Shown here: piece by piece, positions 43,225-63,975 of the stretch
Position numbering within the stretch: position 1 is the stretch's first letter
Layout of the letters: every line of letters begins with the position of its first letter
Source: Desulfobacterales bacterium
GTDB lineage: Bacteria; Desulfobacterota; Desulfovibrionia; Desulfovibrionales; Desulfothermaceae
DNA: 64,000 bases
Direction: 5' to 3'
Assembly: GCA_027064715.1 (NCBI GenBank)
Contig: JAMOPG010000245.1
Location: forward strand, 1 to 64,000
Notes under the pieces: model-generated
Seen by the model: the letters and a program-made list of their open reading frames with translations, nothing else
The model's database searches: none
Told to the model about the DNA's origin: nothing
Program-made: the position numbers and the translations under genes

Positions 43225-44010
43225 ATGGTATCAAAAAATATAAAACTTTTAAAAATCTTTCTTGGTCTGACATTTATTTTACTGCCTTCTATCTGCATGG
43301 CACATTTTGGAACAATAATGCTAAAAAACACTATGCTTGATCAATACACACGAAAAACTCAGGCTATATTTGCGTTCATACATCCCTTTGAACAAAATGG
43401 GATGGATTTAGAGATACCTGACAAAGTGGAGATGATCAACCTGACTACTGGGGAAAAAATAGATCTAATTAACTTTCTTATACCCAAAAAGATCCTAAAT
43501 CATAAAGCATACAAATCAAACATTGCCATTAAAAAGCCAGGGGTATATTGCATTTATATGATTCCAAAACCATATTTTGAACCAGCAGAAGACAAATTTA
43601 TAAAGCACATAACAAAGACATATCTTGCTGCCTTTGGAGAAGAGGAAGGGTGGAGCAAACCCCTTGGATTAGAGGTAGAGATCGTGCCTTTGACAAGGCC
43701 CTTTGGTCTGTATGCTGGAAATGTATTTAGGGGTAAAGTATTGAGAAATGGACAGCCTATTGCAGGAGCAGAAGTAGAGGTAGAATACTTTAACAGGGGC
43801 TCAAAAATAAAAGCCAGAAATGAATATATGGTTACACAAGTTGTATTAACAGACGACAAAGGTGTATTTTCTTACTCACCACCAGCACCTGGATGGTGGG
43901 GATTTTCTGCCTTAACAGAAGCTGACTATAAGATACAACACAATGGACAGGATAAACCTGTTGAGGTTGGTGGAGTTATATGGGTAAAGTTTCTCCCATG
44001 GGGAAAATAA
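43225..44010 (+). CDS. NikK-like periplasmic component (DUF4198) of a Ni/Co ECF transporter
   Basis: Signal peptide ending CMA|H, DUF4198-like beta domains, position immediately upstream of CbiM. Confidence 0.85.
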   Translation: MVSKNIKLLKIFLGLTFILLPSICMAHFGTIMLKNTMLDQYTRKTQAIFAFIHPFEQNGMDLEIPDKVEMINLTTGEKIDLINFLIPKKILNHKAYKSNIAIKKPGVYCIYMIPKPYFEPAEDKFIKHITKTYLAAFGEEEGWSKPLGLEVEIVPLTRPFGLYAGNVFRGKVLRNGQPIAGAEVEVEYFNRGSKIKARNEYMVTQVVLTDDKGVFSYSPPAPGWWGFSALTEADYKIQHNGQDKPVEVGGVIWVKFLPWGK

Positions 44011-44042
44011 TCACTTAAATCCTCAATTGGGAGAACGCAATC

Positions 44043-44669
44043 ATGCATATATCAGAAGGAGTATTATCTCCCCCTTTACTCATAGCAGGAGCTGCAATCA
44101 CTGTTGTGGGGACCTGGATTGGGCTTAGAAAAACCAGGCCCAAAGAGGTCCCCCTCATGGCAGTTTTGACATCTGCATTTTTTGTGGCTTCCCTGATCCA
44201 TGTGCCAATAGGTCCTTCAAGTGTTCATCTTGTATTAAATGGACTTATTGGCCTCCTCTTAGGATTTGGGGCATTTCCTTCAATCCTTATAGCCCTTTTA
44301 TTGCAGGCACTTTTTTTTCAATTTGGAGGAATATTAGTTTTAGGTGTAAATTGTACCAATATGGCATTACCTGCGATTTTTGTATATATTTTATTTAAAA
44401 AATATTGTGAATCTGAGAAAAGGATACACAGATTAGTATCTGGATTTTTAAGTGGTTCTTTAAGCATCTTTTTGTCGACATTACTTGTGGCCATTTGTCT
44501 GTATTTGACTGGAGAGAACTTTACTGCTGCAGCAAAAACGATTGTTTATGCCCATTTACCAGTAATGATAATAGAAGGCCTTATTACTGCAGCATGTATT
44601 GACTTTATATACAGGGTAAAGCCTGAAATGCTTAAAATAGATGAAATAGGAGCAAAAAATGAGATATAG
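44043..44669 (+). CDS. cbiM: Ni/Co ECF transporter substrate-specific component CbiM/NikM
   Basis: MHISEGVLSPPLLIAGAA, SLIHVPIGPSSVHLVLNGLIGLLLG. Confidence 0.94.
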   Translation: MHISEGVLSPPLLIAGAAITVVGTWIGLRKTRPKEVPLMAVLTSAFFVASLIHVPIGPSSVHLVLNGLIGLLLGFGAFPSILIALLLQALFFQFGGILVLGVNCTNMALPAIFVYILFKKYCESEKRIHRLVSGFLSGSLSIFLSTLLVAICLYLTGENFTAAAKTIVYAHLPVMIIEGLITAACIDFIYRVKPEMLKIDEIGAKNEI

Positions 44670-45267
44670 TATCTTTATTTTGGTTAGCCTATTTTTATGT
44701 CTTCAAAATGTTTATGGCCACAGGATCGATGTGTTTTGCTACACAGAAGATAATGTGATAAAATGCTATTCAAAATTTTCTACAGGCACACCTGTGAGAT
44801 ATGGAAAATACCAGGTATATATTAGAAAGAAACTCATATATGAAGGTAAGTCAGATGATCAGGGAAACTTTGTTTATAAGATCCCAAAAGAGCTATTAAA
44901 TAATCCAAAAGACTTAAAAATAGTTTGTATTGCAGAAATGGGACATGAAAATTATTGGATTGTAAAAAAAGAAGAATATGCAACAAATATACAAAAAGAG
45001 CCAAGTTCAGATAATGATTTTTTTGATGAAGAAGAGGATCTATCTAAAGAAAACAAAACAACACAGACAACACATCAAGCCTCAATAGATATAATAAGGC
45101 TTGAAAAATCAATCAGAAAAATCATAGCATCAGAGTTATCACCTATCAAACTTGAACTTGTTAAGTTACAAGAACCCAAAATAGATTTACGGGACATTTT
45201 AGGTGGTATTGGTTATATATTTGGTATAATGGGAATAATTATGTATTTTAAATCACAGAAAAGCTAG
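44659..45267 (+). CDS. NikL-like membrane-anchored component of the Ni/Co transporter
   Basis: Signal peptide then HRIDVFCYTEDNVIKCYSKFSTG...; C-terminal TM; operon position between CbiM and CbiQ. Confidence 0.8.
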   Translation: MRYSIFILVSLFLCLQNVYGHRIDVFCYTEDNVIKCYSKFSTGTPVRYGKYQVYIRKKLIYEGKSDDQGNFVYKIPKELLNNPKDLKIVCIAEMGHENYWIVKKEEYATNIQKEPSSDNDFFDEEEDLSKENKTTQTTHQASIDIIRLEKSIRKIIASELSPIKLELVKLQEPKIDLRDILGGIGYIFGIMGIIMYFKSQKS

Positions 45268-45270
45268 ATC

Positions 45271-46032
45271 ATGTTACAGGAAACATTTTGTAGTGGAAAT
45301 TCTATATTCCACAGGGCAGATCCCAGAATAAAGATTATACTCTTAGTTTTGTATATTTTTGCAATAGTTTTAAACAACAGTATTATATCTGTCTTAATAT
45401 TATTTGTATTCTCACTTATCTTTGTATGTCTTTCAAAGGTATCCATATGGATGGTTTTTAAAAGACTGTTTGTAGTAAATACATTTGTTTTATTTTTATG
45501 GTTTTTTTTACCTTTTTCTACACCTGGAGAAACAGTATTTACTATATATAAATTAAAAGCATCAATGGAAGGAATCACAGAGGCGTTGCTTATTACCATC
45601 AAGGCAAATGGAGCTATTTTGGCTATTATTACATATGTATCTACTACTACAATACCTATGATTGGTCATGCCTTATATAAATTAGGAGTTTCTCAAAATC
45701 TGGTATTACTTTTCCTTTTGACTTATAGATATTTAGATGTAATATTTGATGAATTTAGCAGAATGTATAATGCAGCGATTATAAGAAACTTTATTCCCAA
45801 AACAAATATACACACCTATAAAACAATATCATACATGGTAGCTATGGTATTAATCAGGGCTTATGAAAGGGGTAAACGGATTTATGAGGCAATGCTTCTT
45901 CGAGGTTTTAATGGAAAATTTTCTTCCCTCCAGCAACTTAAACTTACCAAAAATGATTTGTTAATTAGCTATTTGACATTATTTTCTATTGTATTATCTT
46001 TTGTGCCTCAATATATTTGTTATCTACGCTGA
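45271..46032 (+). CDS. cbiQ: Ni/Co ECF transporter transmembrane component CbiQ
   Basis: FHRADPRIKIILLVLYIFAIV, YERGKRIYEAMLLRGFNG. Confidence 0.93.
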   Translation: MLQETFCSGNSIFHRADPRIKIILLVLYIFAIVLNNSIISVLILFVFSLIFVCLSKVSIWMVFKRLFVVNTFVLFLWFFLPFSTPGETVFTIYKLKASMEGITEALLITIKANGAILAIITYVSTTTIPMIGHALYKLGVSQNLVLLFLLTYRYLDVIFDEFSRMYNAAIIRNFIPKTNIHTYKTISYMVAMVLIRAYERGKRIYEAMLLRGFNGKFSSLQQLKLTKNDLLISYLTLFSIVLSFVPQYICYLR

Positions 46033-46067
46033 TATGATCTTTTCATATCTTTTGCAGGAAATTACAT

Positions 46068-46808
46068 ATGAACCAACCTTTATTAAGACTCAAGGATGTT
46101 TATTTTAGATATCCTGAATCAGAAAGGTTTGTGCTTCAGGGATTTAATTTTTCTCTATCTTTAGGAGAAAGAGTAGGTATAATTGGTCCAAATGGAGAAG
46201 GAAAGACCACTTTTTTGCACATTTGTGTTGGTTTACTAAAGCCAAATAAAGGAGATATCTTTTTTAAAGGTAGAAAAATAAAAAAAGAAAAAGACCTGTT
46301 AGAACTTCGGCGTACCATTGGTCTTGTGTTCCAAAATCCAGATGATCAACTCTTCTCGCCAACTATATTAGAAGACGTGGCCTTTGGACCATTAAACTTG
46401 GGACTGTCTAAAGAAGAAGCCAAAAAAAGGGCATTATGGGCACTTGAGCTTGTTGGTTTAAATGGCATGGAAAATAGGATCACAAACAAACTTTCTGCAG
46501 GAGAAAAAAGATTATTGTCCCTTGCCACTATTATTGCCATGAAGCCTCAGGTTATGCTCTTGGATGAACCAACAACAGGACTCGCTCCTGAGACTAGAGA
46601 AAGGATTATATGCCTGCTCAATGATCTACCAATGGATTTAGTGATCGTGTCCCATGATTGGGATTTTCTGGTAAGGACCACCAATAACCTATATCTTTTG
46701 AAGGATGGGCAGCTTATTAAAAAGGATATGTCCATATTACACAAGCATAAACACGTCCATCCCTATGGAGACATTCCCCATGAACACTGTGATGTATATG
46801 TTATTTAA
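46068..46808 (+). CDS. cbiO: Ni/Co ECF transporter ATPase CbiO with His-rich tail
   Basis: GPNGEGKTTFL, NPDDQLFSPTILEDVAFGPLNLGLS, LSAGEKRLLSLATI; tail LHKHKHVHPYGDIPHEHCDVYVI. Confidence 0.95.
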   Translation: MNQPLLRLKDVYFRYPESERFVLQGFNFSLSLGERVGIIGPNGEGKTTFLHICVGLLKPNKGDIFFKGRKIKKEKDLLELRRTIGLVFQNPDDQLFSPTILEDVAFGPLNLGLSKEEAKKRALWALELVGLNGMENRITNKLSAGEKRLLSLATIIAMKPQVMLLDEPTTGLAPETRERIICLLNDLPMDLVIVSHDWDFLVRTTNNLYLLKDGQLIKKDMSILHKHKHVHPYGDIPHEHCDVYVI

Positions 46809-51101: not shown

Positions 51102-52616
51102 TTACCAGAGGGTCTTAAGTGTGGTTCCAGGATAATAAAACTTTAAGATCTCTTTAAAATTATATCCCTTTTTCCCCATTATAGCACCACCCCATTGGGA
51201 ATAACCCACTCCGTGCCCCCATCCTTTACCTTTGAATATTAGGGTGTTTCCCTGTTTTTCAATCTTGAATAATATCTCTGGTAGACCCAATGCCCTTCTT
51301 AAAGTTGTCCTTGTCCTGTATTCCTTGGTTATAGAATTGGAAACAATCTTTATCTTTACTATTCTACCAGAAGGTCCCCTCTTTGTAGGCACAATCTCTT
51401 TCAACCCTTTGACAGGCAATCCAATGGCTCTAAGTCGTTTTTCCACATCACGGATAGTATAACTTCTTTTCCACTTGGCCATCTTTCCCTTTAAGCTCAA
51501 TGGATCTGGCTTTGCCACAAGGTATTCTTTATTCAACTTAAAGATATAGCTCGCATCTGCTGTGTATCCTCCATTATTCGCGGTGAACATTGCCAAAATG
51601 GGCCTATTTTTTTCAATTAATACCATTCCTCTGGTCTCATTTACTGCCTGAGTAGTTCTTTTGGTCTCTCTATCAACCCCTTTATATGCCTGATCTCCTG
51701 CATTATCCACTACATCATATGACCAATTCTTTCTATGCAATATTTGATAATATGCATAAGTTCTAGCAGCCACAGCTTGCGCCTTTAAGGTCTCTAATGG
51801 CCACGAAGGATAAGACTCTGATGGAACCACCCCCCAAAGATAGCTCTCTATATCAAGCACATTCAACACCATCAATTTATCACCTTTGTATGGTTTTATT
51901 ATTATTTTTCCTCTTACCCTTTTCTTATAATCACCAGAGATCACTTTTATAGGTATTGATGACTCAATAACTAATTGTTTTCCATCGTAGGAAGAACTAG
52001 TTATTAAAAGTTCATCTTTTGTTGTAGGTGTTCCATTTATTACAAGATCTTTTCCAATACATTTTACACTGTGTATTTTCCTTAAAAGTAGAACTCTAAT
52101 AATAGGAGGAGCCTTTTTTATTTCAGGTTTTACTTCTGGTGGCTTAACCATAGTTAAGGCTTGACCTAGAAGTGCCTCAGACTGATATTTATACCTACCT
52201 TCTGGAAATTCTTTTAAATATTCTTTAAACACAGCTGATGAATCTTTATATTTTCCCATATCAAAAAGTAGTAATCCCTTTCTATATAGAGCTATCTCTT
52301 TACCTTCTGGATATTTAATAATTATCTCATTGTATATGTCTAAAGCTTGATCCTCTGCATCTAAAAATGTTGCTAACAGATTGGCTTTATATAATAACAC
52401 CTTAAGTCTAGTTTGTTTATAAGGAGTGACCTCAAAAGCAGTATTATATGCATCAAGGGCATCAAGATACTTCCCAACATCTATTAAATAACTAGCATAG
52501 CTAATATTCCACTGGGCGAGCCTTTCTTGAGCCAAAGTATTTTCATCCACTTGGGCAACTGCTACTGAACTATAAATTATAAATAATAACATCACTATAA
52601 TTATTTTTTTCCTCAT
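51102..52616 (-). CDS. SpoIID/LytB domain protein with N-terminal TPR region
   Basis: VLDIESYLWGVVPSESYPSWPLETLKAQAVAARTYAYYQ, DQAYKGVDRE, GKGWGHGVGYSQWGGAIMGKKGYNFKEILKFYYPGT. Confidence 0.92.
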   Translation of the reverse strand: MRKKIIIVMLLFIIYSSVAVAQVDENTLAQERLAQWNISYASYLIDVGKYLDALDAYNTAFEVTPYKQTRLKVLLYKANLLATFLDAEDQALDIYNEIIIKYPEGKEIALYRKGLLLFDMGKYKDSSAVFKEYLKEFPEGRYKYQSEALLGQALTMVKPPEVKPEIKKAPPIIRVLLLRKIHSVKCIGKDLVINGTPTTKDELLITSSSYDGKQLVIESSIPIKVISGDYKKRVRGKIIIKPYKGDKLMVLNVLDIESYLWGVVPSESYPSWPLETLKAQAVAARTYAYYQILHRKNWSYDVVDNAGDQAYKGVDRETKRTTQAVNETRGMVLIEKNRPILAMFTANNGGYTADASYIFKLNKEYLVAKPDPLSLKGKMAKWKRSYTIRDVEKRLRAIGLPVKGLKEIVPTKRGPSGRIVKIKIVSNSITKEYRTRTTLRRALGLPEILFKIEKQGNTLIFKGKGWGHGVGYSQWGGAIMGKKGYNFKEILKFYYPGTTLKTLW

Positions 52617-52619
52617 AAA

Positions 52620-55136
52620 CTAATCCTTTTTCTTGGAAAAATCTTCTTTTAAATTAAAGCGTTTACTTATCCAACCCTTTTTTATTTCTCCAGAGACCTC
52701 TAATACCTTTTTATCAATCAGATAAGAGCCTTGAGCAACTATATTTAAAATCGGAGATGAAACTATTATTTGTTTAATATTTGCCTTTTTTATGTTTCCA
52801 GAAATTGAACCTGTTATTGAATTAAACTCTAGACTGTCAGAAAGCTTTGAAGGATTCAACTTAACAAAACTCAAAATCTCCAATATCATCTTTATTTTTT
52901 TTCCCAGATTAGAAAGTTTTAATACCTGCCCATTTGAAATAGATACAAACAAGTCATATGTTAAATTATCTTTTATCTCCTTTAAGGTCTTCCCTTGAGT
53001 GAGAATTGAACATGTCAAATTGGTATCTCCCTTAATATAAATAGGTGCTTGAGATATAAAACAACCAATAAGTCCATCTAATGGAACAGACACGCTATCA
53101 ATATTAACAAAACTATTAATCCCTGGATTTAAAAACTCACTCCCTGCTTCAAAGGACAAATTACAAAAATATCCAGAAAATCCTAAAAATGTTTTTTTAT
53201 CAAACAACAAATCACCTTTTACATTGTCTATATAATATTTGGAATCTAGTATTTCTAAAGCTATTTCATCCAATTCAAAATGATATTTTTTTGATATTTT
53301 CTTAATTATATCTGGAAATTTGACTGCTATTATTTTATTTTCATCAATCTCATCCTTCTTTTCATTAGATTTCGTCTGATTTAGTTTTATTATAGACACC
53401 TTTTTTGTTATAATATCTATGTAATCATTTTTTTTCTCTATACGAGTTTTTCCATCGATTGTGTATAGAGGTAATTTTATAAAATATGTTGTATTTATCT
53501 TTTGTTTTGTCCTTTTACTTATATTTATAAGTTTTATTTTAAAGTTTTGATATAATACATCTTTTATATCCAATTCTAAATATAAATTCTCAAAAAAGTA
53601 TCTGACCTTTTTACTAAAATCTTTAATAGGAACTATTGATGAAAAACTTAATCTTACTTCACCATTTTTATTAAAAATTCCATTAAATATTCCATTTTTT
53701 AAAGTCAAATATTCGTTATTAATAGATGTATTTGAAGAAAAATTAGCAATAGAAAAATTTATATCATTAGAATTAAGGTCTGTGTCTGTTATTTTGAAAT
53801 CAGTTTTAACTGTAAAATTATTTTTTATCGTGTCTAATTTCAGTTCCAAATTACTTAAGCTTAAATTAGACCTAACCAATTTAATCAATTGATTTCTGGA
53901 AATAAAATATCCAATATTATTCGCAACAACATATATTCCTTTATTTACCATATTTAAAAGATTGTTTTCAAATGCCAAATTTATAGGTTGTATGTTAAAA
54001 ATAAGACTAGATCCATTATTAGTGTAGATGGTAAAGGGCTCATTAAAAACTATGTTTGTCCTAACATTTATGGCTGTCTTATTACTATTTTTATTAAAAT
54101 CTAATTTTCCATTTACATTTAAAGTAAAATCAACTCTAGGTAGTGAAAGAGATTTTATATTTAACTCTTTAATTCTCTCATTTAAAATTATATGTTCTCC
54201 CACTATATGAAGTTTATCAAATGAGAACTCTAGATTTTGCTCTGCAATTACAATATTAGATGAATTTAGTCCTAATGATACACTAATTGGCTCTTTGTCT
54301 CTTTCTGTATAAATGTATGTTAAAATCTTTTCAGTTGAAATGGTACCATTCAAACTGGTCAATGTGGCATTCTTATCTATATCAACTAATTTTAAGTGGA
54401 CATTATTTACAAATAAATTTCCGTCCAAAGAAATATTATTTGCTCTTAAAAGGTTATAATTATTAATTGCTTCAATTATTTTTTCTTTTATATCAGGTTT
54501 TAAATTAAAAATTTTTTCTGAAACTGCCTTTATATCACAGCTAATACTTTTTGAATCAAAATATAAGAAATTTTTATCAATGTTCAATGAAAGATTTTTT
54601 ACATATGAATTACCAACTGATATTAATTGACCATTTATTGTAGTTTGTTTAGTTAAATTATTTAACTTAATCTTGAGTTTTTTAACTATCAATTTATTTT
54701 TGTTCCAGAAAAAAGGACCTTCTATAGAGTCTATGTCACAGAAATATGTATTATCTTTTAACAATACATTTATATTCTTTATTATAGATGGTCCATGGAT
54801 ATCGTTAAAATAAGGAAAGTTGATATTTAGTTTTTGAATTAAATTTATTAATTCTTTTGCTGAAAGCTTAATCTCTTTGGATGATAATCTAAAACTCAAA
54901 GGATCTTTACTGAATATTTCAAAATCAAAATCTCCTTCTAATTTTAGATTTAAAAAAGATATACAACCTCTTAATCTCAAATGATCTGGGTCCAAAAAAT
55001 TTATTACATCAATATTGCCTGAAAATTTAAAGCCCAATTTGCGTTCAGAAATGGATTTTTGATCTATACTTCCATACAAAGGTATGATGAAATATAGAAA
55101 TATTGTGCTAAGAAAAAAAATTATTTTGTATTTCAT
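52620..55136 (-). CDS. AsmA-like/large periplasmic beta-rich protein
   Basis: Signal peptide; repetitive beta-rich 838 aa; C-terminal SNGQVLKLSNLGKKIKMILEIL...FNSITGSISGNIKKANIKQIIVSSPILNIVAQGSYLIDKKVLEVSGEI resembling AsmA C-terminal regions. Confidence 0.65.
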   Translation of the reverse strand: MKYKIIFFLSTIFLYFIIPLYGSIDQKSISERKLGFKFSGNIDVINFLDPDHLRLRGCISFLNLKLEGDFDFEIFSKDPLSFRLSSKEIKLSAKELINLIQKLNINFPYFNDIHGPSIIKNINVLLKDNTYFCDIDSIEGPFFWNKNKLIVKKLKIKLNNLTKQTTINGQLISVGNSYVKNLSLNIDKNFLYFDSKSISCDIKAVSEKIFNLKPDIKEKIIEAINNYNLLRANNISLDGNLFVNNVHLKLVDIDKNATLTSLNGTISTEKILTYIYTERDKEPISVSLGLNSSNIVIAEQNLEFSFDKLHIVGEHIILNERIKELNIKSLSLPRVDFTLNVNGKLDFNKNSNKTAINVRTNIVFNEPFTIYTNNGSSLIFNIQPINLAFENNLLNMVNKGIYVVANNIGYFISRNQLIKLVRSNLSLSNLELKLDTIKNNFTVKTDFKITDTDLNSNDINFSIANFSSNTSINNEYLTLKNGIFNGIFNKNGEVRLSFSSIVPIKDFSKKVRYFFENLYLELDIKDVLYQNFKIKLINISKRTKQKINTTYFIKLPLYTIDGKTRIEKKNDYIDIITKKVSIIKLNQTKSNEKKDEIDENKIIAVKFPDIIKKISKKYHFELDEIALEILDSKYYIDNVKGDLLFDKKTFLGFSGYFCNLSFEAGSEFLNPGINSFVNIDSVSVPLDGLIGCFISQAPIYIKGDTNLTCSILTQGKTLKEIKDNLTYDLFVSISNGQVLKLSNLGKKIKMILEILSFVKLNPSKLSDSLEFNSITGSISGNIKKANIKQIIVSSPILNIVAQGSYLIDKKVLEVSGEIKKGWISKRFNLKEDFSKKKD

Positions 55137-55149
55137 ATTTTTAAATTAC

Positions 55150-55171
55150 AGAGGGGAGATACCTCCCCTCT
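55150..55171 (-). terminator. Hairpin at the end of the envelope operon
   Basis: Perfect 9-bp stem AGAGGGGAG-ATAC-CTCCCCTCT between 55185 (stop) and 55136 (next start). Confidence 0.65.
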
Positions 55172-55184
55172 AGTTAGCTAATAT

Positions 55185-56090
55185 TTATTTTAGCAAAAAT
55201 ACAACCCTTGCTTGATTCAAAAACTGAGTTGCCTCATTGTTTACAAATATTAAAGCAGCATCATCTTTACTTACTGCTACATCTGTATTCTTTATCACTT
55301 TTACAGCAACTACCTTTATTGGATTTTTTGCACCCCATGTCTTCAGAAGTGCTTTGGCCTTTGTTTCGTCATTAGTAAAACCACCACAACCACGTTCAAC
55401 CAAAACTGAACTCACAATTTTGGAAGGGTCAAAAATGATTTCACCATTCTCATTTAATATCCTATTAACAAGGGCAGGTCTAAATGAAAATGCCCTCACA
55501 TCCACAATAAGACCATCTATAGGATTTTCCATCTTTGAAGGAGCTTGTACTTTAGGTTTTTCCTCAACTTTGCCAGTTGGTGCCGTAGGAACTTTTGGCT
55601 TTTCAATAACTTGAGGAATTACCTTTGGAGTGTAGGCTGGCCTTGGTGGCGGAAGCAGCCCTTCATCTTTTAAAAGGGGAAGGATCACATCATATAATCC
55701 ACCATGTCCCCTTAAATAAAGCCTCAAACATACCTCAGCATAACCTCTATCAGCATAATATTTTTCTCCACATTTAACTGCACCTTTTAAAACTCCTTGA
55801 ACAGTGGTACTAATATTATCACTTTGCAACATCCCATCTCTCACAGTAGTGGTTCCAAACAAGGTAATGCCCTGAAGGACCTCTAAAAGATCCCTTTGAG
55901 CAACAACAGTTGCTGCCCTGATTGCCTTGTATTTGCTCTGACCTTCTTCTGAGGAACCTATTACTTGAATATATCCTTCAGAAAAGACCTTGACTGGGTC
56001 TGTAACAGGCTCCCACTGTTCCTGAGCCATGACATTTGCTCCAAATAAAAGTATAAAAATAGATATAATCAAAAATACATACCTTTTCAT
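55185..56090 (-). CDS. LPP20-like exported protein
   Basis: Signal peptide; GYIQVIGSSEEGQSKYKAIRAATVVAQRDLLEVLQGITLFGTTTVRDGM. Confidence 0.75.
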   Translation of the reverse strand: MKRYVFLIISIFILLFGANVMAQEQWEPVTDPVKVFSEGYIQVIGSSEEGQSKYKAIRAATVVAQRDLLEVLQGITLFGTTTVRDGMLQSDNISTTVQGVLKGAVKCGEKYYADRGYAEVCLRLYLRGHGGLYDVILPLLKDEGLLPPPRPAYTPKVIPQVIEKPKVPTAPTGKVEEKPKVQAPSKMENPIDGLIVDVRAFSFRPALVNRILNENGEIIFDPSKIVSSVLVERGCGGFTNDETKAKALLKTWGAKNPIKVVAVKVIKNTDVAVSKDDAALIFVNNEATQFLNQARVVFLLK

Positions 56091-56106
56091 GACCTTCCTC
56101 CTTATT

Positions 56107-57309
56107 TTAATTGATATTCATTATATTTCTAAGTTTCATAAGAGCCCCAATCAACTCAGCTCCTTCAACATTGTCATCAGGTCTAAACTCCCCTGAGAGA
56201 TCAGGCTCCATCAGACCTCTGCTGGTACAATTCATAACTGCATTAAACCAGGCTACATTTACAGGGACATCTGGAAATGGAGACTTTTCTGTCCCAAAGT
56301 ATGCAGTTGCAATGGAGTTATCCCCAGTAAGTTTAATAAGTAAATCTTCTATTATAAAGGCAAGTTGTTTCCTTGTAATTGGCTCCTCTGGCTTAAATAG
56401 ATATGCCTGGGTAGTTTTGTCATACTCAGGTTCTAATCCCCTAATATTCCATTTTATCACAGTCAGGATCTCATCTTTAAATGGATGATTTAAAACATCC
56501 GCAGGAGTAAAAGCCACTTTTGGCAAATTAGATTTAACTACAATTCTTCCAGCCATAAATTTATCTAGATGAAGTTCATCCACTAACAAAGCAGCAACAT
56601 CTCCTCTGGTTACTGCAGGTTTTACAGCAATCTTTTTACCAACACCTGTTAATGTGTATTGCCCCATTGCCCTGACAATCTTTTGTACCCTCTTAAACAT
56701 TCTATCTGCCTTATCATGCCATTTCCCAGGCTTAGAAGACAAAACCTTAGAAAATGCATCTTCTGCTTTTCTAAATTCATAGGCAAGGTAGTAACCATAA
56801 CCCATAAAATAGTGGGCAGCTGCTATAGTCTGATAATAAGGCAAATCAGCCTCATCTACCTTTTTCAAATTTAATGCATAGCTATAGTGATCTTCAGCCT
56901 CCTTGAGCCAGCCTTTTGGATGAGCTGTAAAATATGCCCTTATGGCAGTTACATGGTAAATGAATCTTTCACTATTGTTTTCTACCTTTTTCCTTGCCTT
57001 ATTCAAATACTTTTTAACTTTATCAAATTCCACTTCCCAATGTCCCTGATCCTTTTGATTTCTAGCATATATTGCGTGAACTAAAGCCTTTCCTGCAAGT
57101 GCAGGACTGTAATTTTTGTCAAGGTATAAGGCCCTGGTAAAATGATTGTCTGCCTCCTCTATTTTACTTTGTTCAATTAATTCCATTCCCATTAAATAAT
57201 GATGGGATGGATTGTCTTCTAAAGACACTCCTGTCCTTTGTTTAGGAGCGCAACCAAATATTATTGCCACCCCTAATATTAATAAAATAAACCATAGCCT
57301 CCTCATCAC
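56107..57309 (-). CDS. TPR lipoprotein with C-terminal S-layer-homology-like repeats
   Basis: Lipobox-like IIFGCAP; TPR; PFKDEILTVIKWNIRGLEP...FKPEEPITRKQLAFIIEDLL...FPDVPVNVAWFNAVMNCTSRGLMEPDLSGEFRPDDNVEGAE. Confidence 0.75.
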   Translation of the reverse strand: MMRRLWFILLILGVAIIFGCAPKQRTGVSLEDNPSHHYLMGMELIEQSKIEEADNHFTRALYLDKNYSPALAGKALVHAIYARNQKDQGHWEVEFDKVKKYLNKARKKVENNSERFIYHVTAIRAYFTAHPKGWLKEAEDHYSYALNLKKVDEADLPYYQTIAAAHYFMGYGYYLAYEFRKAEDAFSKVLSSKPGKWHDKADRMFKRVQKIVRAMGQYTLTGVGKKIAVKPAVTRGDVAALLVDELHLDKFMAGRIVVKSNLPKVAFTPADVLNHPFKDEILTVIKWNIRGLEPEYDKTTQAYLFKPEEPITRKQLAFIIEDLLIKLTGDNSIATAYFGTEKSPFPDVPVNVAWFNAVMNCTSRGLMEPDLSGEFRPDDNVEGAELIGALMKLRNIMNIN

Positions 57310-58694
57310 ATCCTCCTATTTTTTAACTTTTTTTCCATTTTCAACATTGCCTTTAAATATCCCTTATACTTGGACACCTGAGTTTCTTGAGCAATTAAAT
57401 ATCCAACAACCTCACTGGATGTAATTGGAAGAGTTAATATTTTACTCATAATGTTTTTAAACCTTTTTTCATAAAATCGTCTATCCTTTTTGGTAAATAC
57501 TCCTTTCTTTACAAGAAGGGGATATGTGACAAATGCCCTAGCAACATTCGTTTTTTTCATTACTACAATATCATTCAAAATCTTTACAACTAGATTTAAA
57601 ACAACTGAACTATTCTCCAAAAAACTCCTGTCCATATAATTAACTATTTCCATTAATTTTTTAGCCTTTTTTATATTTTCTTTTGTAACATGCAAATTAG
57701 ATAATGCCTCTCTATAAAGCTTATCTTGAAGCGTCTTTTTATTTTCTAGTTCCTTTTTCAAATTATCTCTTTTCTTTTTAATGGCCCTCTTTTCTGCTGC
57801 AGGCAGACTTGAAAAATATTTAGAATCTTTCATTTGTTGCTTTATTTCTTCTAGCTCAGATTCAACTAAAAAGACCTCGGTATCTATTCTTTTTATTCTA
57901 TCCCTTATATTTGGAGACAACAGAGAATAAAATACCTCCTTAAAAGTACCTAAATGTTCTCCTGCAACTGTTCTAAAACACCGAATAGGCACAGGAACAT
58001 CTGCCCAGTTTCTTACTCCACCCTTCTGAGACAAATACTTAACTAACATATCTTCAATAGGTCTATTAAAAAAATCACACCTTCTATAACACCGCATCTT
58101 TTTTATTTTTCTGCACATCCTTTTATTAATTTTTTTGTCAATAAATTCTTTAGAAAAATATTCACACTCACAACCAAATGGAACGTAAGACAATACACTC
58201 TTGGTATGTTCCAGTTCTATGCCCAAATTCTTTGTGCCCTCAATAAACATCCTGCTACCCATTGTGCCCATGACACTATAAAAAAAGTGGTCTTTAGATA
58301 CAATAGTTGCCGCATATGCATTCGGATTATAAAGCCTAAAAAAGGCAAAGTCCCTTTTCAATTTATTTTTTAGACATTTTACATATATTTTCTTTTTTTT
58401 CTTTTCCTCTTCTGTAAGCTTATTTCTATAAAAGTCATTGAGTAATTCTGGCCACTTATCTTCATAAGAAATAGGCATCCGTTCGAGGATTATTTGATTT
58501 AATTTAACAATAGTGGCAACTTCATCAAGCAGGGTTAAGTCTAGCTCTGCTTCAATGAGAGGATTTTTATTTTGAGCCCCTTTTTCTCCACTTGCAACAT
58601 TTGTCATGTTCCCCAGTGTCATCATTCCACTTGTAGCACAGCCCCCTAGAAAAAAGATGATTACTATTACCAACAATCTTTTTTCAACCCGCAT
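57306..58694 (-). CDS. Hypothetical lipoprotein with Cys-rich segment
   Basis: Lipobox FFLGGCAT; FGCECEYFSKEFIDKKINKRMCRKIKKMRCYRRCDFF; no family recognised. Confidence 0.75.
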   Translation of the reverse strand: MRVEKRLLVIVIIFFLGGCATSGMMTLGNMTNVASGEKGAQNKNPLIEAELDLTLLDEVATIVKLNQIILERMPISYEDKWPELLNDFYRNKLTEEEKKKKKIYVKCLKNKLKRDFAFFRLYNPNAYAATIVSKDHFFYSVMGTMGSRMFIEGTKNLGIELEHTKSVLSYVPFGCECEYFSKEFIDKKINKRMCRKIKKMRCYRRCDFFNRPIEDMLVKYLSQKGGVRNWADVPVPIRCFRTVAGEHLGTFKEVFYSLLSPNIRDRIKRIDTEVFLVESELEEIKQQMKDSKYFSSLPAAEKRAIKKKRDNLKKELENKKTLQDKLYREALSNLHVTKENIKKAKKLMEIVNYMDRSFLENSSVVLNLVVKILNDIVVMKKTNVARAFVTYPLLVKKGVFTKKDRRFYEKRFKNIMSKILTLPITSSEVVGYLIAQETQVSKYKGYLKAMLKMEKKLKNRRM

Positions 58695-58717
58695 TTATCT
58701 CTTCCTCCTTTTTCTCT

Positions 58718-59674
58718 TTAAAATCCAGTAGGTGTCTTAAATTCCTCAAGCAACTTTTTTGTCTTTTTTTGACGTTTTGTTGCAGAAAAGGCAGTATTTA
58801 ATTCGTAAGAAACATCTCCCATAGCCTTTTGTATGTCATAATCTTGAGGAGCTAACATGGCTGCTTTGCGGTAATATTTTAATGCCTTTTGTAGGTACAA
58901 TTGTTGAGTATTCATATCATTTGCATTATTCCACGCCATACATTCAAGGGCCACTCCTGCATTATAAAGCACATTGACATCCTTACATCCAGGACTATCA
59001 GCAATTGGTTTTAGGACTTCATAGGCACCTATACAATTTCCATTATTAATCATATCTGCAGCACTTTTTGCCATGCCTGAGGTGCCTTTTACAGGCCTTA
59101 AAATTGTGGACTTTACAGGCACAAATTGTCTTACTACCTTTCTAACAGCCTCTTTAACCAGCATCTCCTTAACCTTTAAGTCTGATGGTAATTTATCCCT
59201 TCGATATGCTGGCTGTATAAATTTCTTTTCAATTAAAATAGGCTCTCCTGTGGAACACTCTAAAATACCAGCTTGCCTTATAGAAAAATTGGCCTGAAAC
59301 ACACCATATTTTTCAATGGATCCCCCTTGTTTTTTGGTAACAACCTTATAATTGATCACTTTAATACTCAAATCAGGATATTCTCCCTCCATAGAAGACA
59401 TTGTAACAGGATTTATAAACCTAGTTTCTCCGAGCACTGCTCTAGCATACTGAGCTATTAATGCCTTATCACTTTCACTCACATTTCCAGAAATTGTGTC
59501 TCGTCCCACATATATAAAAGAGATGCCCTCATCTCCTCCAGCAGAACACACAATAGATTCTTTTACAGTATTAGGCTTGTAAATTTGTACAAGTGCACCC
59601 TTTGAGCCCACATGAGTAGTAACGCATCCCCAAGTAAATGACAAAAACAAAAGTACTATTGTAATCCTCTTCAT
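58718..59674 (-). CDS. Hypothetical lipoprotein with C-terminal TPR-like region
   Basis: Lipobox-like TWGCVTT; KALKYYRKAAMLAPQDYDIQKAMGDV. Confidence 0.75.
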   Translation of the reverse strand: MKRITIVLLFLSFTWGCVTTHVGSKGALVQIYKPNTVKESIVCSAGGDEGISFIYVGRDTISGNVSESDKALIAQYARAVLGETRFINPVTMSSMEGEYPDLSIKVINYKVVTKKQGGSIEKYGVFQANFSIRQAGILECSTGEPILIEKKFIQPAYRRDKLPSDLKVKEMLVKEAVRKVVRQFVPVKSTILRPVKGTSGMAKSAADMINNGNCIGAYEVLKPIADSPGCKDVNVLYNAGVALECMAWNNANDMNTQQLYLQKALKYYRKAAMLAPQDYDIQKAMGDVSYELNTAFSATKRQKKTKKLLEEFKTPTGF

Positions 59675-59676
59675 AA

Positions 59677-60840
59677 CTAATACCCTCCTCCAGCTCCTGA
59701 ATAACTTCCTTCAAATATTATCCTTGTACCAGAAATCTCGGCTGGCTCTAAAGGTAGTTGTTTACGTTTAAAAGTCTTTCTCAAAATCCTCCTAATAGAG
59801 GTAGGATCTGCTTCATTAAATACCTCAATTTCCATATAACTTCCTGTCTGTCTAGCAATCCTATACCGCCATCCAAGTTCTTCCAAAATATCTTCCACTT
59901 GATCTTGCTCATTAAGAGACACGTTTCTTATTATAACCATTGCAAATTTGGCCCTTGCGCCACTAAATCTTCTTACTATTTTCCCAACTAAACGATCAAC
60001 CACACGTGGTCCTATTTTTATAGCCACCCTTGCAACTCCATCTTGAAGACCATAGTCACCACCACTCGTGATTGTCTTGCCTCTGTCCTGAACAGCGGCA
60101 AAGAGTTCTCCTGTGGTACAATCATAGGCCTTTAATGTTAAAGTTGCATAGATTAGATAATAACCATCACTGGTAGGCTTCTTTCCTGCATCAAAAGATA
60201 CTAATACCACTGCATCCCCTGTTTCTTGTCGCGCAATGTTTATTGCACTCTCTTCATCCACCACCATCTCAGCTGCCCTTCCCCTGATCCTTTTTAGTTG
60301 ATCAGGCAAAAATACCCTGAATCCCTTAGAGGCCAATCTGTCTTGAATAAGATCCATAACTGACTGAACTGCCTTTGAATCGTATGGAATATCAAGGCCA
60401 GTTCTTGGTTTGTACAAAACAATAACTTTTCTTTCATCAAACTTTGTTTCCTGAAATGTACGCTGAAATTTAGGATCTTCCATGAATTGTGCTACTGCAT
60501 TTTTTAATTTAATGTCATCTAATTCAACACTAAGTTTTACTTTGTATACATCAGTAACAGGATCTTTCCCCTCTGCAAGCACCTGATACCTCTTGACATA
60601 GCCTGCGCTAGCTGAGGTTATCCTGTCAAAAACAAGCTTCCCCTGGGCCACATTTGAATGTGAGGTCACCAGGGCACCAAGTGCCTCTTCCACAGCTGCC
60701 CTGATCCCATTATTAATAGCCGCCTGCCTCGTTTGACCTTCTCCAATAGCAGTTACAGTCCTTGCATAACCACTTTGGACAAAAAATAGTAGCGCTAATA
60801 AAAATCCTGCTAAAAAAAACAAATTCCTCTTCATAACCAA
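59677..60840 (-). CDS. FlgT/LPP20-like exported protein
   Basis: Signal peptide YARTVTAIGEGQTRQAAINNGIRAAVEEALGALVTSHSNVAQGKLVFDRITSASAGYVKRYQVL, the FlgT N-terminal-like pattern. Confidence 0.75.
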   Translation of the reverse strand: MVMKRNLFFLAGFLLALLFFVQSGYARTVTAIGEGQTRQAAINNGIRAAVEEALGALVTSHSNVAQGKLVFDRITSASAGYVKRYQVLAEGKDPVTDVYKVKLSVELDDIKLKNAVAQFMEDPKFQRTFQETKFDERKVIVLYKPRTGLDIPYDSKAVQSVMDLIQDRLASKGFRVFLPDQLKRIRGRAAEMVVDEESAINIARQETGDAVVLVSFDAGKKPTSDGYYLIYATLTLKAYDCTTGELFAAVQDRGKTITSGGDYGLQDGVARVAIKIGPRVVDRLVGKIVRRFSGARAKFAMVIIRNVSLNEQDQVEDILEELGWRYRIARQTGSYMEIEVFNEADPTSIRRILRKTFKRKQLPLEPAEISGTRIIFEGSYSGAGGGY

Positions 60841-60854
60841 CCTCCTTTTTATAT

Positions 60855-63047
60855 TTAATTTTCAAAAAATACCTTCATTGACACAAGTGTTGGATTGTTG
60901 GGATTCAATTTAAGGCCCTTATCAAGTAATTTTTTTGCCTTTTTCTTTTCATTTACTTGCAAAAAATATCTAATACCCAGTTGATATATCCTAATCTCAT
61001 AGGGATAATTTTTTATAGCCTCCTCTATCACATCCTCTATAGACTCATCTGATATCATTGAGAGTGCATAGATATAGTAAATATATGTTGTAGCGCTATG
61101 ATATATAGGAATAATCTCCTTAAAAATCTCAACTGCCTTACCATAATTCCCTTTATTTAAGAAATGTATCGCTTCTTTTTCCTTGGCTTTTGCTTGTTTA
61201 ATCAAATCTTTCATAAAAATTTCTTTGCCTTTTGGATATGGATTATCTAAAAAGCTCTCTACTTTAATATCTCCTTTTAATTTAAATTCTGATGGCCTGG
61301 CTCCACCTAAATAATTCCCTTTTAATACTAAAGGTATATAAGATTCTATGGCTATTATATTATTCAAAAAATTACATTTTTCAAGATTTATTTCTCCCCT
61401 TTTAACCCAAATAGATAATCTATTATTTTCAAAATCAGTTTTTGATATATTTACCTTCCCATCATTTATTATAATTGCCTTTTCAAAATTTCTCATAGTT
61501 GATTCAGAGATATATATGTCCTCAAAGGTGTTCACTAACAAGCCATTCTTCCCATTTAAAAAGATGGTATGATTGGCATTTAGTTTCCCTTCTACATCTA
61601 CTTTAATCTTATTTATTTTTACATCCTTACTGGTTATGGACCCCGTGTGGAGTACTTTTATATCTTTTGTGCCATTAGAATCTTCACCTGATATAAAAGA
61701 ATCCTCTAGTTTTAAATTCCCTTCCACTAATAGTGTTGAATTATCTTTAAATAGGATATCCACATTTGGGCCAATTGTAACATCAGAGCCAAATGGAATC
61801 TTCACTGTCCCATTGATCTCATATTTTCCTGAAGAAACATTTGATATAATAACATCAGGAAGTACCCTTCTTGTTAATGTTGGAATAGAAACAGGGCCTA
61901 GCTGAGCTGCCTTTGATCTATTACCAACTGCATCCACACTAACTATTCTATAAAAATAGATACCACCAGGTGTAACAGATCTGTCTGTCCAGAAAAATTC
62001 CTTTACTTCTGCTACTTTTTGATAACCTGACAGGGGCTTGTTACTCCTATAGATTTCAAACTTTATAACATCACTGTCTTCTGTTTTCCATGAAAGGGTA
62101 ATTGAGTCTTTAGAAAGTCTGTAAGTAAAATCTGTCACCATCTGAGGAGGAATACCATCTATTGAGACCAAGGGAGAGGTCTCTATCCAGTCCCTTTGCT
62201 CACCTCTTTGATTTTTCAAGTGTAAGTATATTATTCCATTTTCCAACTTATCCCCTTCCTTAACTAAATACATGCCTTTGTATATCCCATTTTGCACCTC
62301 TGCCATTGGCACACCTTTTATAAGTGGCTCTATATCAAATGTTGCTTTTCCACCAGGGGTGCCTTCCATTCCCACCATAATCTTATCCCCTTTTTTAAAC
62401 GGAGTTTCAGTAACATTAGTCACTACTCGCAAAATCTTGGGTTTTTTTATTGCCTCAGAAAAAGAAGGGATCAAGCTAGAAACCTTGAATGCCCATTCAA
62501 ATATCACATTTTTTATATTAACATTACCTTCAGAAGAGACAGCTGTTGAAACAACTGTAGCTATTGCTCCAAGGGGATCTGTGGCAATGGAGAGCTTTTT
62601 TCTTGTTGCCTTTTCTCGCCAGGAACCTAGTTTTTTATCACGCTTATACAATATTATCTCTCCATCCATCTTATAATATTGTGCAAAAGCTATGTTAAAG
62701 CTCGAAAGCTCATACACCTTAATAAGAAAAACACCATCTATATCTGACTGTTTTTCAAAAACCTTTTTTATATCACTATCTTTTATCTTAGGAGAAATGG
62801 GCACATCTACCTTGAGGTTTCTAATTATATAACCCTTTCCAGATAAATAATTTTTGACCACATTTAAAACCATTCCAAGTGCAGCAAGTTCAATCTTTTT
62901 ATCTTGCATGGCAACAGGTCCAACAATTGCCACCTTTCTGGGTAGCTCTTTTTCAGCTATAAAATATACGTTGGAATTAGATCCCAAACAAAAGGAATAA
63001 CCACATAAAGTGAATATCAGGATACCCATGACAATTTTGTATCTCAT
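60855..63047 (-). CDS. Multidomain exported protein: N-terminal lipoprotein-like domain, FN3, beta-helix, TPR
   Basis: Signal peptide; FN3-like ITLSWKTEDSDVIKFEIYRSNKPLSGYQKVAEV...YFYRIVSVDAVGN; repetitive beta-helix segments; C-terminal TPR. Confidence 0.75.
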   Translation of the reverse strand: MRYKIVMGILIFTLCGYSFCLGSNSNVYFIAEKELPRKVAIVGPVAMQDKKIELAALGMVLNVVKNYLSGKGYIIRNLKVDVPISPKIKDSDIKKVFEKQSDIDGVFLIKVYELSSFNIAFAQYYKMDGEIILYKRDKKLGSWREKATRKKLSIATDPLGAIATVVSTAVSSEGNVNIKNVIFEWAFKVSSLIPSFSEAIKKPKILRVVTNVTETPFKKGDKIMVGMEGTPGGKATFDIEPLIKGVPMAEVQNGIYKGMYLVKEGDKLENGIIYLHLKNQRGEQRDWIETSPLVSIDGIPPQMVTDFTYRLSKDSITLSWKTEDSDVIKFEIYRSNKPLSGYQKVAEVKEFFWTDRSVTPGGIYFYRIVSVDAVGNRSKAAQLGPVSIPTLTRRVLPDVIISNVSSGKYEINGTVKIPFGSDVTIGPNVDILFKDNSTLLVEGNLKLEDSFISGEDSNGTKDIKVLHTGSITSKDVKINKIKVDVEGKLNANHTIFLNGKNGLLVNTFEDIYISESTMRNFEKAIIINDGKVNISKTDFENNRLSIWVKRGEINLEKCNFLNNIIAIESYIPLVLKGNYLGGARPSEFKLKGDIKVESFLDNPYPKGKEIFMKDLIKQAKAKEKEAIHFLNKGNYGKAVEIFKEIIPIYHSATTYIYYIYALSMISDESIEDVIEEAIKNYPYEIRIYQLGIRYFLQVNEKKKAKKLLDKGLKLNPNNPTLVSMKVFFEN

Positions 63048-63210: not shown

Positions 63211-63975
63211 ATGAAAAAATTCATTTTTTTTGTTGCTTTGTTTCCAATTATTTTAACAGCTAATCTTGGTTTTTCAGAAGATTTTTGTCAAAACATCACC
63301 ATCCAAGAGCTGGAAAAACACCTACCTGGCCCCTTACCCCCAAATTCAAAAATTCTCCTTAATAAGGAGAAAGAAGGTATTTGTGAAAGTATTATAGATG
63401 TAAATGGAAGGGAAATTCCTTTTTATTCCACAAAAAACTTTGTCATAATTGGACAGATGTTTAAGGATAAAAAGAACTTATCCTATGAGGCAATATCAAC
63501 AATAAGAAAATCATATTTATCAAAGCTCAAAGACAAGATTGATAGTGCTGTGACATATTCCTTAATGCCAGATAAAATTAGACCTGAGCACACCATATAC
63601 TTTTTCACAGACCCACTTTGCCCCTATTGTCATAGGACTGTTCAGCGAATAAAAAATTTTTCCAATAAAACAAATACCAATGTAAAGATTATCCTTTATT
63701 CTGTGCATGGGGATAAAGGAAACAAAGAAATAGAAAAGGTCATTTGTTCCAATATGGATTTTGAGACTTATGCATCCACTAATTTTCCTCTCCAAAAGAA
63801 AAGTACCACATGTGAGAAAGGGCAAAAGGTAATAAAACTAGGACAGGAAATTGCCAGAAAATTAAAGATAAATGCAGTCCCTGCATTTGTCCTGGAAGAT
63901 GGAACACAGGTAATAGGGGCAGATTTAAGAAGACTAGAGCTTGCTCTGTCACAGACTTCTAATTCAACCAAATAA
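63211..63975 (+). CDS. DsbC/DsbG-like thiol:disulfide isomerase
   Basis: Signal peptide; YFFTDPLCPYCHRTVQRIKNF; INAVPAFVLEDGTQVIG. Confidence 0.88.
   Translation: MKKFIFFVALFPIILTANLGFSEDFCQNITIQELEKHLPGPLPPNSKILLNKEKEGICESIIDVNGREIPFYSTKNFVIIGQMFKDKKNLSYEAISTIRKSYLSKLKDKIDSAVTYSLMPDKIRPEHTIYFFTDPLCPYCHRTVQRIKNFSNKTNTNVKIILYSVHGDKGNKEIEKVICSNMDFETYASTNFPLQKKSTTCEKGQKVIKLGQEIARKLKINAVPAFVLEDGTQVIGADLRRLELALSQTSNSTK

Follow-up and report, generated by a model that had tools for sequence, protein, structure and literature searches.

Several protein families, among them FlgP/FlgT, PelC, CsgG and PqiC, form rings under the outer membrane. The PelC ring is dodecameric, and both CsgG and PelC are export rings of the outer membrane. 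PqiC is structurally homologous to PelC; it assembles into an octameric toroid at the outer membrane, and this toroid receives the MCE protein PqiB (PMC10897342). The trans-envelope bridge of Veillonella consists of MlaEFD in which MlaD is long; TamB, which is AsmA-like, and Mla move phospholipids in opposite directions, and MlaEFD-only systems are thought to be ancestral (PMC10665443). Here we describe an operon of six genes, lettered A to F as they are transcribed, which occupies the minus strand from 63047 to 55185 of a 64,000-nucleotide stretch of a Desulfobacterales bacterium, a heat-loving sulfate reducer (contig JAMOPG010000245.1, positions 1 to 64,000; the window in the following). Together with the AsmA-like and SpoIID genes that follow, these six genes are one version of a module that is widespread across the families of the Desulfobacterota. 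The families of its parts are known, the assembly is undescribed in what was searched, and a plausible class for it is that of rings which dock trans-envelope conduits.

Distribution and versions of the module

The survey set consisted of 297 Desulfobacterota genomes. B-family proteins were found in 123 of them, with up to six paralogues per genome, and E in 69, 44 of which matched at E<1e-50 (strong E). In 31 of the 44 strong-E genomes, B and E were no more than 8 kb apart, against about 0.7% expected. Of the 39 scored loci, which represent 18 families, 35 had F no more than 10 kb from E, and 28 had B around E. Four loci had been left out of this count by the crude open reading frame caller; in the two that were re-read (G294 and G230) B, E and F are present. 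Thus the genes do co-occur, and the grouping that the earlier note on this DNA had made from the sequence is not due to chance.

The co-occurrence also bears on the possibility that these genes form a cluster for envelope stress or scaffolding in general, in which each member acts separately and only expression and location are shared. Such a cluster would fit the variable gene order and content (F-E-B, B-E-F or B-C only) and the many B-family paralogues. However, the E-F pair is kept in 18 families, and B and E are linked much more often than chance would give. Both speak for a partnership that is either physical or functionally obligate, and we regard separate action of the members as improbable.

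Within the genus, A to F, the AsmA-like and SpoIID genes and a divergent DsbC/DsbG-like gene are syntenic in G003/L002 and in Desulfothermus okinawensis; in the third member (L001) the contig stops within D. Most long genes of the D. okinawensis copy (L003 / G001:C17) are split by frameshifts. As every long gene of the region is hit, the neighbours included, these are taken as sequencing errors and not as decay. Simple horizontal acquisition of the operon by the genus may have occurred, since other members of the window's family are without B and E; on the other hand, a further genus of the order shares the layout.

Two main versions of the module can be distinguished. Loci of the AsmA type read B-C-D-E-F-AsmA-A-SpoIID in G161, a member of a distant family, from which the window differs in having A first; B-CsgG-E-F-AsmA-SpoIID in G193; and B-E-F-AsmA-A-SpoIID in G413, G385 and G386, which belong to the other genus of the order. 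The Mla type has the order B-GNA1162-CsgG-E-F-barrel-MlaE-MlaF-MlaD-TPR (G176, G228, G314 and G294, with variants in G148 and G273). The two types are connected by G076, where SpoIID is placed between F and MlaE. Mla genes were present within 10 kb in seven loci from five families (G076, G148, G176, G228, G273, G294 and G314) and slightly past 10 kb in G317. With an assumed background of 2% per locus, the probability of at least seven Mla-linked loci among 42 is 1.9e-5. In G131 a C-B pair follows directly after MlaE-F-D. In the window, the AsmA-like gene sits where the Mla genes sit in Mla-type loci, and no MCE protein or permease is among the genes of the window operon. A third version, with a transglutaminase-core gene after F, was found in one family only (L053, L068, L070 and L074).

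The Mla-type loci resemble the Veillonella bridge in that their MlaD is long (314-384 aa) and in that MlaA and MlaC are outside the same cluster. In G176 the GNA1162, CsgG, MlaE, ABC and MlaD proteins all score above the Pfam cut-off. Unlike in Veillonella, the barrel of the module is a separate gene, TIGR04219-like at 3e-21, which is below the cut-off, and the SLH, LPP20 and FlgT_N partners are new. In Helicobacter pylori (HP1454 and HP1456/Lpp20; HP1464-HP1466, MlaD/F/E), no more than about ten genes separate LPP20 from the Mla genes, judged by gene number only (PMC11756786). Possibly, this is the same association outside the Desulfobacterota.

The six proteins and their relatives

The six minus-strand genes of the earlier note were confirmed by the listing of open reading frames. 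Their spacing, described there as 2-24 bp or a 4-bp overlap, was measured from A to F as 14, 2, 23, -4 and 16 bp. The signal peptide or lipobox proposed for every protein could likewise be recognized by eye: all six N-termini are hydrophobic and signal-like, with lipobox-like cysteines in C, D and E and cleavable-looking signals in A, B and F.

B (59677..60840, minus strand; 387 aa) is a periplasmic protein with a probable SHS2-type FlgT_N/FlgP N-terminal domain, a GNA1162/PelC-type middle domain and an alpha/beta C-terminal domain. Its profile matches chain C of PDB entry 9HMF, the Campylobacter motor periplasmic scaffold, with an E-value of 2.4e-4; this chain is deposited as 'Lipoprotein, putative' and was read by us as FlgP. 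A full-length homologue in G020 matches Pfam FlgT_N with 38.3 bits (cut-off 28.8), while B of the window itself has no Pfam FlgT_N match. FlgT_M and FlgT_C had no Pfam match in B or its homologues, and the middle domain resembles GNA1162/PelC. Foldseek with the AlphaFold2 model of B, which was built from three sequences and has a pLDDT of 58.6, returned GNA1162 (4HRV) and PelC (5T11) as the best structural matches. Among named relatives, those closest to B come from metagenome-assembled genomes of Desulfohalobiaceae and from D. okinawensis.

F (55185..56090, minus strand; 301 aa) has a signal peptide, an LPP20-type domain and a conserved C-terminal domain. There was no direct Pfam match for F. 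Its alignment with L024:8150-8944, which in turn matches Pfam LPP20 (PF02169) at 2.8e-18, reached 97.1% in hhalign. Through such relatives the LPP20/FlgT-type openings that had been noticed in B and F could each be traced to the FlgT_N, LPP20 and FlgP families. The L024 locus as a whole (L024:3564-18911; G026, from another family) encodes a CsgG-like TPR lipoprotein, an LpoB-family lipoprotein, tandem LPP20 proteins, a FlgT_N protein and an exported repeat protein of 2623 aa.

A (60855..63047, minus strand; 730 aa) combines a signal peptide and an N-terminal GNA1162-like domain (DUF799, i. e. Pfam PF05643) with FN3, beta-helix and TPR. Residues 1-215 aligned with a GNA1162 profile made from other families at 91.6% (hhalign, E 8e-7), and unrelated control profiles gave 0.4% or less. 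Against this profile, the orthologues of A in G413, G385 and G386 (Desulfovibrionales) gave E-values of 1e-18 to 1e-20. In A, the largest protein, the earlier note had seen FN3, beta-helix and TPR, which gave weak matches in the window; TPR and beta-helix exceed the cut-off in the G161 orthologue, which is a lipoprotein. In PDB searches with the single sequences of A and B, the only useful match was to the FN3 of a pectate lyase.

C (58718..59674, minus strand; 318 aa) is a lipoprotein with an uncertain alpha/beta N-terminal half and a TPR C-terminal half. With DUF6340-type relatives it aligned at 86% (hhalign) in the C-terminal half only. The AlphaFold2 model is confident only for about residues 193-296, the TPR part, and has a pLDDT below 50 in the N-terminal half; Foldseek with this model found TPR matches only. 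In the operon, C takes the slot of CsgG in G193 and G176, and a true CsgG fills this slot in G193 and other relatives. Homology of C to CsgG is not supported by the profile comparison, which reached only 0.3% (hhalign).

D (57306..58694, minus strand; 462 aa) is a lipoprotein with conserved cysteines at positions 19, 107, 175, 177, 194, 206 and 239, all seven of which are kept in four of four sequences. Scans of the family libraries gave no family match for D. It is present in the genus and in two of the 297 genomes of the phylum, that of the window and G161; no relative was found beyond these.

E (56107..57309, minus strand; 400 aa) is a lipoprotein with TPR and SLH repeats. The SLH-like repeats of the earlier note are above the Pfam cut-off (residues 344-386, 38.8 bits, cut-off 20.8), and TPR_2 matches at 8e-6. 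From its sequence, E is predicted to bind peptidoglycan or the wall.

The earlier note had suggested an uncharacterized outer-envelope assembly, perhaps comparable to CsgG/DUF4810/DUF799 operons. This comparison proved apt: GNA1162 (PF05643) and CsgG (PF03783) are part of the module operon of other families, where they are encoded between B and E, and in the window the GNA1162-like member is present as a domain of A. The module differs in adding B, E and F. DUF4810 had no Pfam match in the six window proteins or the other proteins scanned. No characterization of the CsgG/GNA1162/DUF4810 operons themselves was found in the literature searched, and neither a name for the combination A to F nor a matching characterized system was found there or in the family libraries. 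A second, parallel locus of the genus (L025:9490-14629 in G002; L026 in G001) encodes a FlgT_N-type protein, a CsgG and TPR lipoprotein (668 aa) and a CsgG-like and FN3 protein (674 aa); no locus of this type was detected in the genome of the window (93% complete).

The hairpin and the flanking genes

Between F and the AsmA-like gene lies a hairpin (55150..55171, minus strand) of nine Watson-Crick pairs and one G-U pair with -18.2 kcal/mol. The earlier note had taken it as the end of the set. The nine pairs are indeed present, but the hairpin is not the boundary, as the AsmA-like and SpoIID genes are syntenic beyond it. The functional set thus appears to run past the hairpin, and because of their synteny in other families the two genes are counted in the unit. 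Hairpins of unrelated sequence are located between F and AsmA in the relatives L002, L003 and L049, and in L050 there are hairpins within the longer F-AsmA gap. No T-run accompanies the hairpin in the window (55171-55150). The conservation of position but not of sequence and the missing T-run suggest an attenuator or processing site, which could separate strongly from weakly expressed genes.

The AsmA-like gene (52620..55136, minus strand; 838 aa) starts 48 bp past F. The window protein had no family match of its own, and the assignment was made from the G161 orthologue and from synteny. This orthologue matches GspN at 3e-13 (49.9 bits, cut-off 50) and AsmA at 1.1e-5, both below the cut-off. 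The gene is syntenic in G003, G193, G161, G413, G385 and G386. After 3 bp follows the gene of a SpoIID/LytB-domain protein with N-terminal TPR (51102..52616, minus strand; 504 aa), assigned by library matches to NCBIfam TIGR02669 (221.5 bits, cut-off 83.3) and Pfam SpoIID (91.9 bits). Besides the family of the window, at least six others have SpoIID/LytB in the module, which brings the count to seven.

On the other side, divergent from A, lies the gene of a DsbC/DsbG-like thioredoxin-fold protein (63211..63975, plus strand), which adjoins A across the genus. It matches Pfam Thioredoxin_2 at 2.4e-9, above the cut-off, and DsbG at 5e-9, below the cut-off. It may serve the disulfides of the seven-cysteine lipoprotein D. 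Farther away in the window (43225-46808) is, judged from the sequence alone, an apparent cobalt/nickel transport operon with CbiM-, CbiQ- and CbiO-like proteins and a periplasmic protein.

A proposed docking ring and its alternatives

The homology of B to FlgT_N and FlgP and of F to LPP20 recalls the FlgT/FlgO/FlgP disks of Vibrio and Campylobacter, beside which TPR scaffolds also occur (PMC12222027), and the window genome has FlgI. Thus the module could be a flagellar outer-membrane disk or H-ring. However, FlgI is absent from 21 of the 44 strong-E genomes (Fisher p = 0.25), near-complete ones among them, and 17 of these 21 have B beside E. The genome of G161 (97% complete) carries the entire module and lacks FlgI. 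There are no flagellar genes in the loci, and B is without recognizable Pfam FlgT_M and FlgT_C. Because so many strong-E genomes do without FlgI, the module is independent of flagella. The FlgI count largely refutes the flagellar disk, to which we give next to no credence.

Our preferred interpretation is that the operon encodes a wall-anchored ring or collar at the outer membrane that docks a trans-envelope conduit for phospholipids. We consider this reading plausible, although it falls somewhat short of an even chance. B, F, A and C, or CsgG in place of C, would form concentric or stacked periplasmic rings below the outer membrane. The TPR and SLH lipoprotein E would fasten the ring to the peptidoglycan, and the SpoIID-type enzyme would open or trim the peptidoglycan to let the conduit through. 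The conduit would be the AsmA-like protein in the lineage of the window and MlaEFD with its long MlaD in others. The proposal of a ring for lipid conduits comes from two precedents: phospholipids are moved by Mla as well as by AsmA-like proteins, and in Pqi the MCE tunnel is seated on a PelC-type ring at the outer membrane. The likeness to PqiABC lies in the lipoprotein ring at the outer membrane, with the middle domain of B matching PelC as PqiC does, and in the MCE partner of the Mla-linked loci. Yet the module has no PqiA or PqiB, the window has an AsmA-like gene and not an MCE gene, and the SLH, LPP20, FlgT_N and SpoIID proteins have no counterpart in Pqi. Ring formation by these proteins, wall binding by E and the lipid cargo are what we infer from the families and their neighborhood.

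Several observations weigh against the proposed docking ring. A CsgG-type domain is not demonstrable in C, the structure model of B is of low confidence (pLDDT 58.6), and the AsmA assignment hangs on the sub-threshold matches of a single distant orthologue. For Mla adjacency, the background of 2% is our own estimate. The Mla link applies to five of the roughly 18 families with an E-F pair, and in many loci both Mla and AsmA are missing. Of these points, the AsmA assignment, the small spread of the Mla link and the half of C that matches no family are the weakest parts of the proposal. Moreover, the window genome has an ordinary MlaE-F-D operon on another contig with MlaC- and MlaA-like genes downstream.

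The fold matches to CsgG and PelC, which are export rings, would also be in line with a channel of this kind through which a protein or a polysaccharide is secreted; A, with its beta-helix and FN3, could then be exposed at the surface in these parts. However, no genes for curli, Pel or another substrate, for a synthase or for a chaperone were found in the loci examined, and the window has C in place of CsgG. An export channel therefore seems a poor candidate.

SpoIID/LytB in the module of seven families and the SLH repeats of E could instead point to a complex for synthesis or remodeling of peptidoglycan, with LpoB/CsgG-type regulators, a SpoIID hydrolase and an SLH anchor, to which the lipid-related neighbors would be incidental. 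In line with this, the proteins in the CsgG slot are touched by both the LpoB and the CsgG models, and in G026 an LpoB-family gene adjoins the FlgT_N and LPP20 genes. Yet no penicillin-binding protein or other wall synthase was found in the loci examined, and such a complex leaves the seven Mla-linked loci and the AsmA gene unexplained. We regard it as unlikely, though it deserves more weight than an export channel.

Outside E. coli, the questions of how phospholipids pass the periplasm and the wall and how their conduits are anchored at the outer membrane still await an answer. The recurrent operon provides concrete candidates for this: outer-membrane proteins of ring-forming families, a predicted wall binder and a putative wall hydrolase together with AsmA-like or Mla proteins. 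The results also suggest that ring proteins of the flagellar motor belong to a wider, non-flagellar envelope toolkit. More tentatively, and with more doubt than for the docking ring of the window, the module could be an undescribed machine that spans the envelope: an outer-membrane ring of FlgP/FlgT-, LPP20- and GNA1162/CsgG-type proteins, anchored to the peptidoglycan, at which lipid conduits that can replace one another, AsmA-like or MlaEFD according to the lineage, would dock. If this were true, it would suggest an ancestral ring-building kit behind both flagellar disks and lipid-transport rings.

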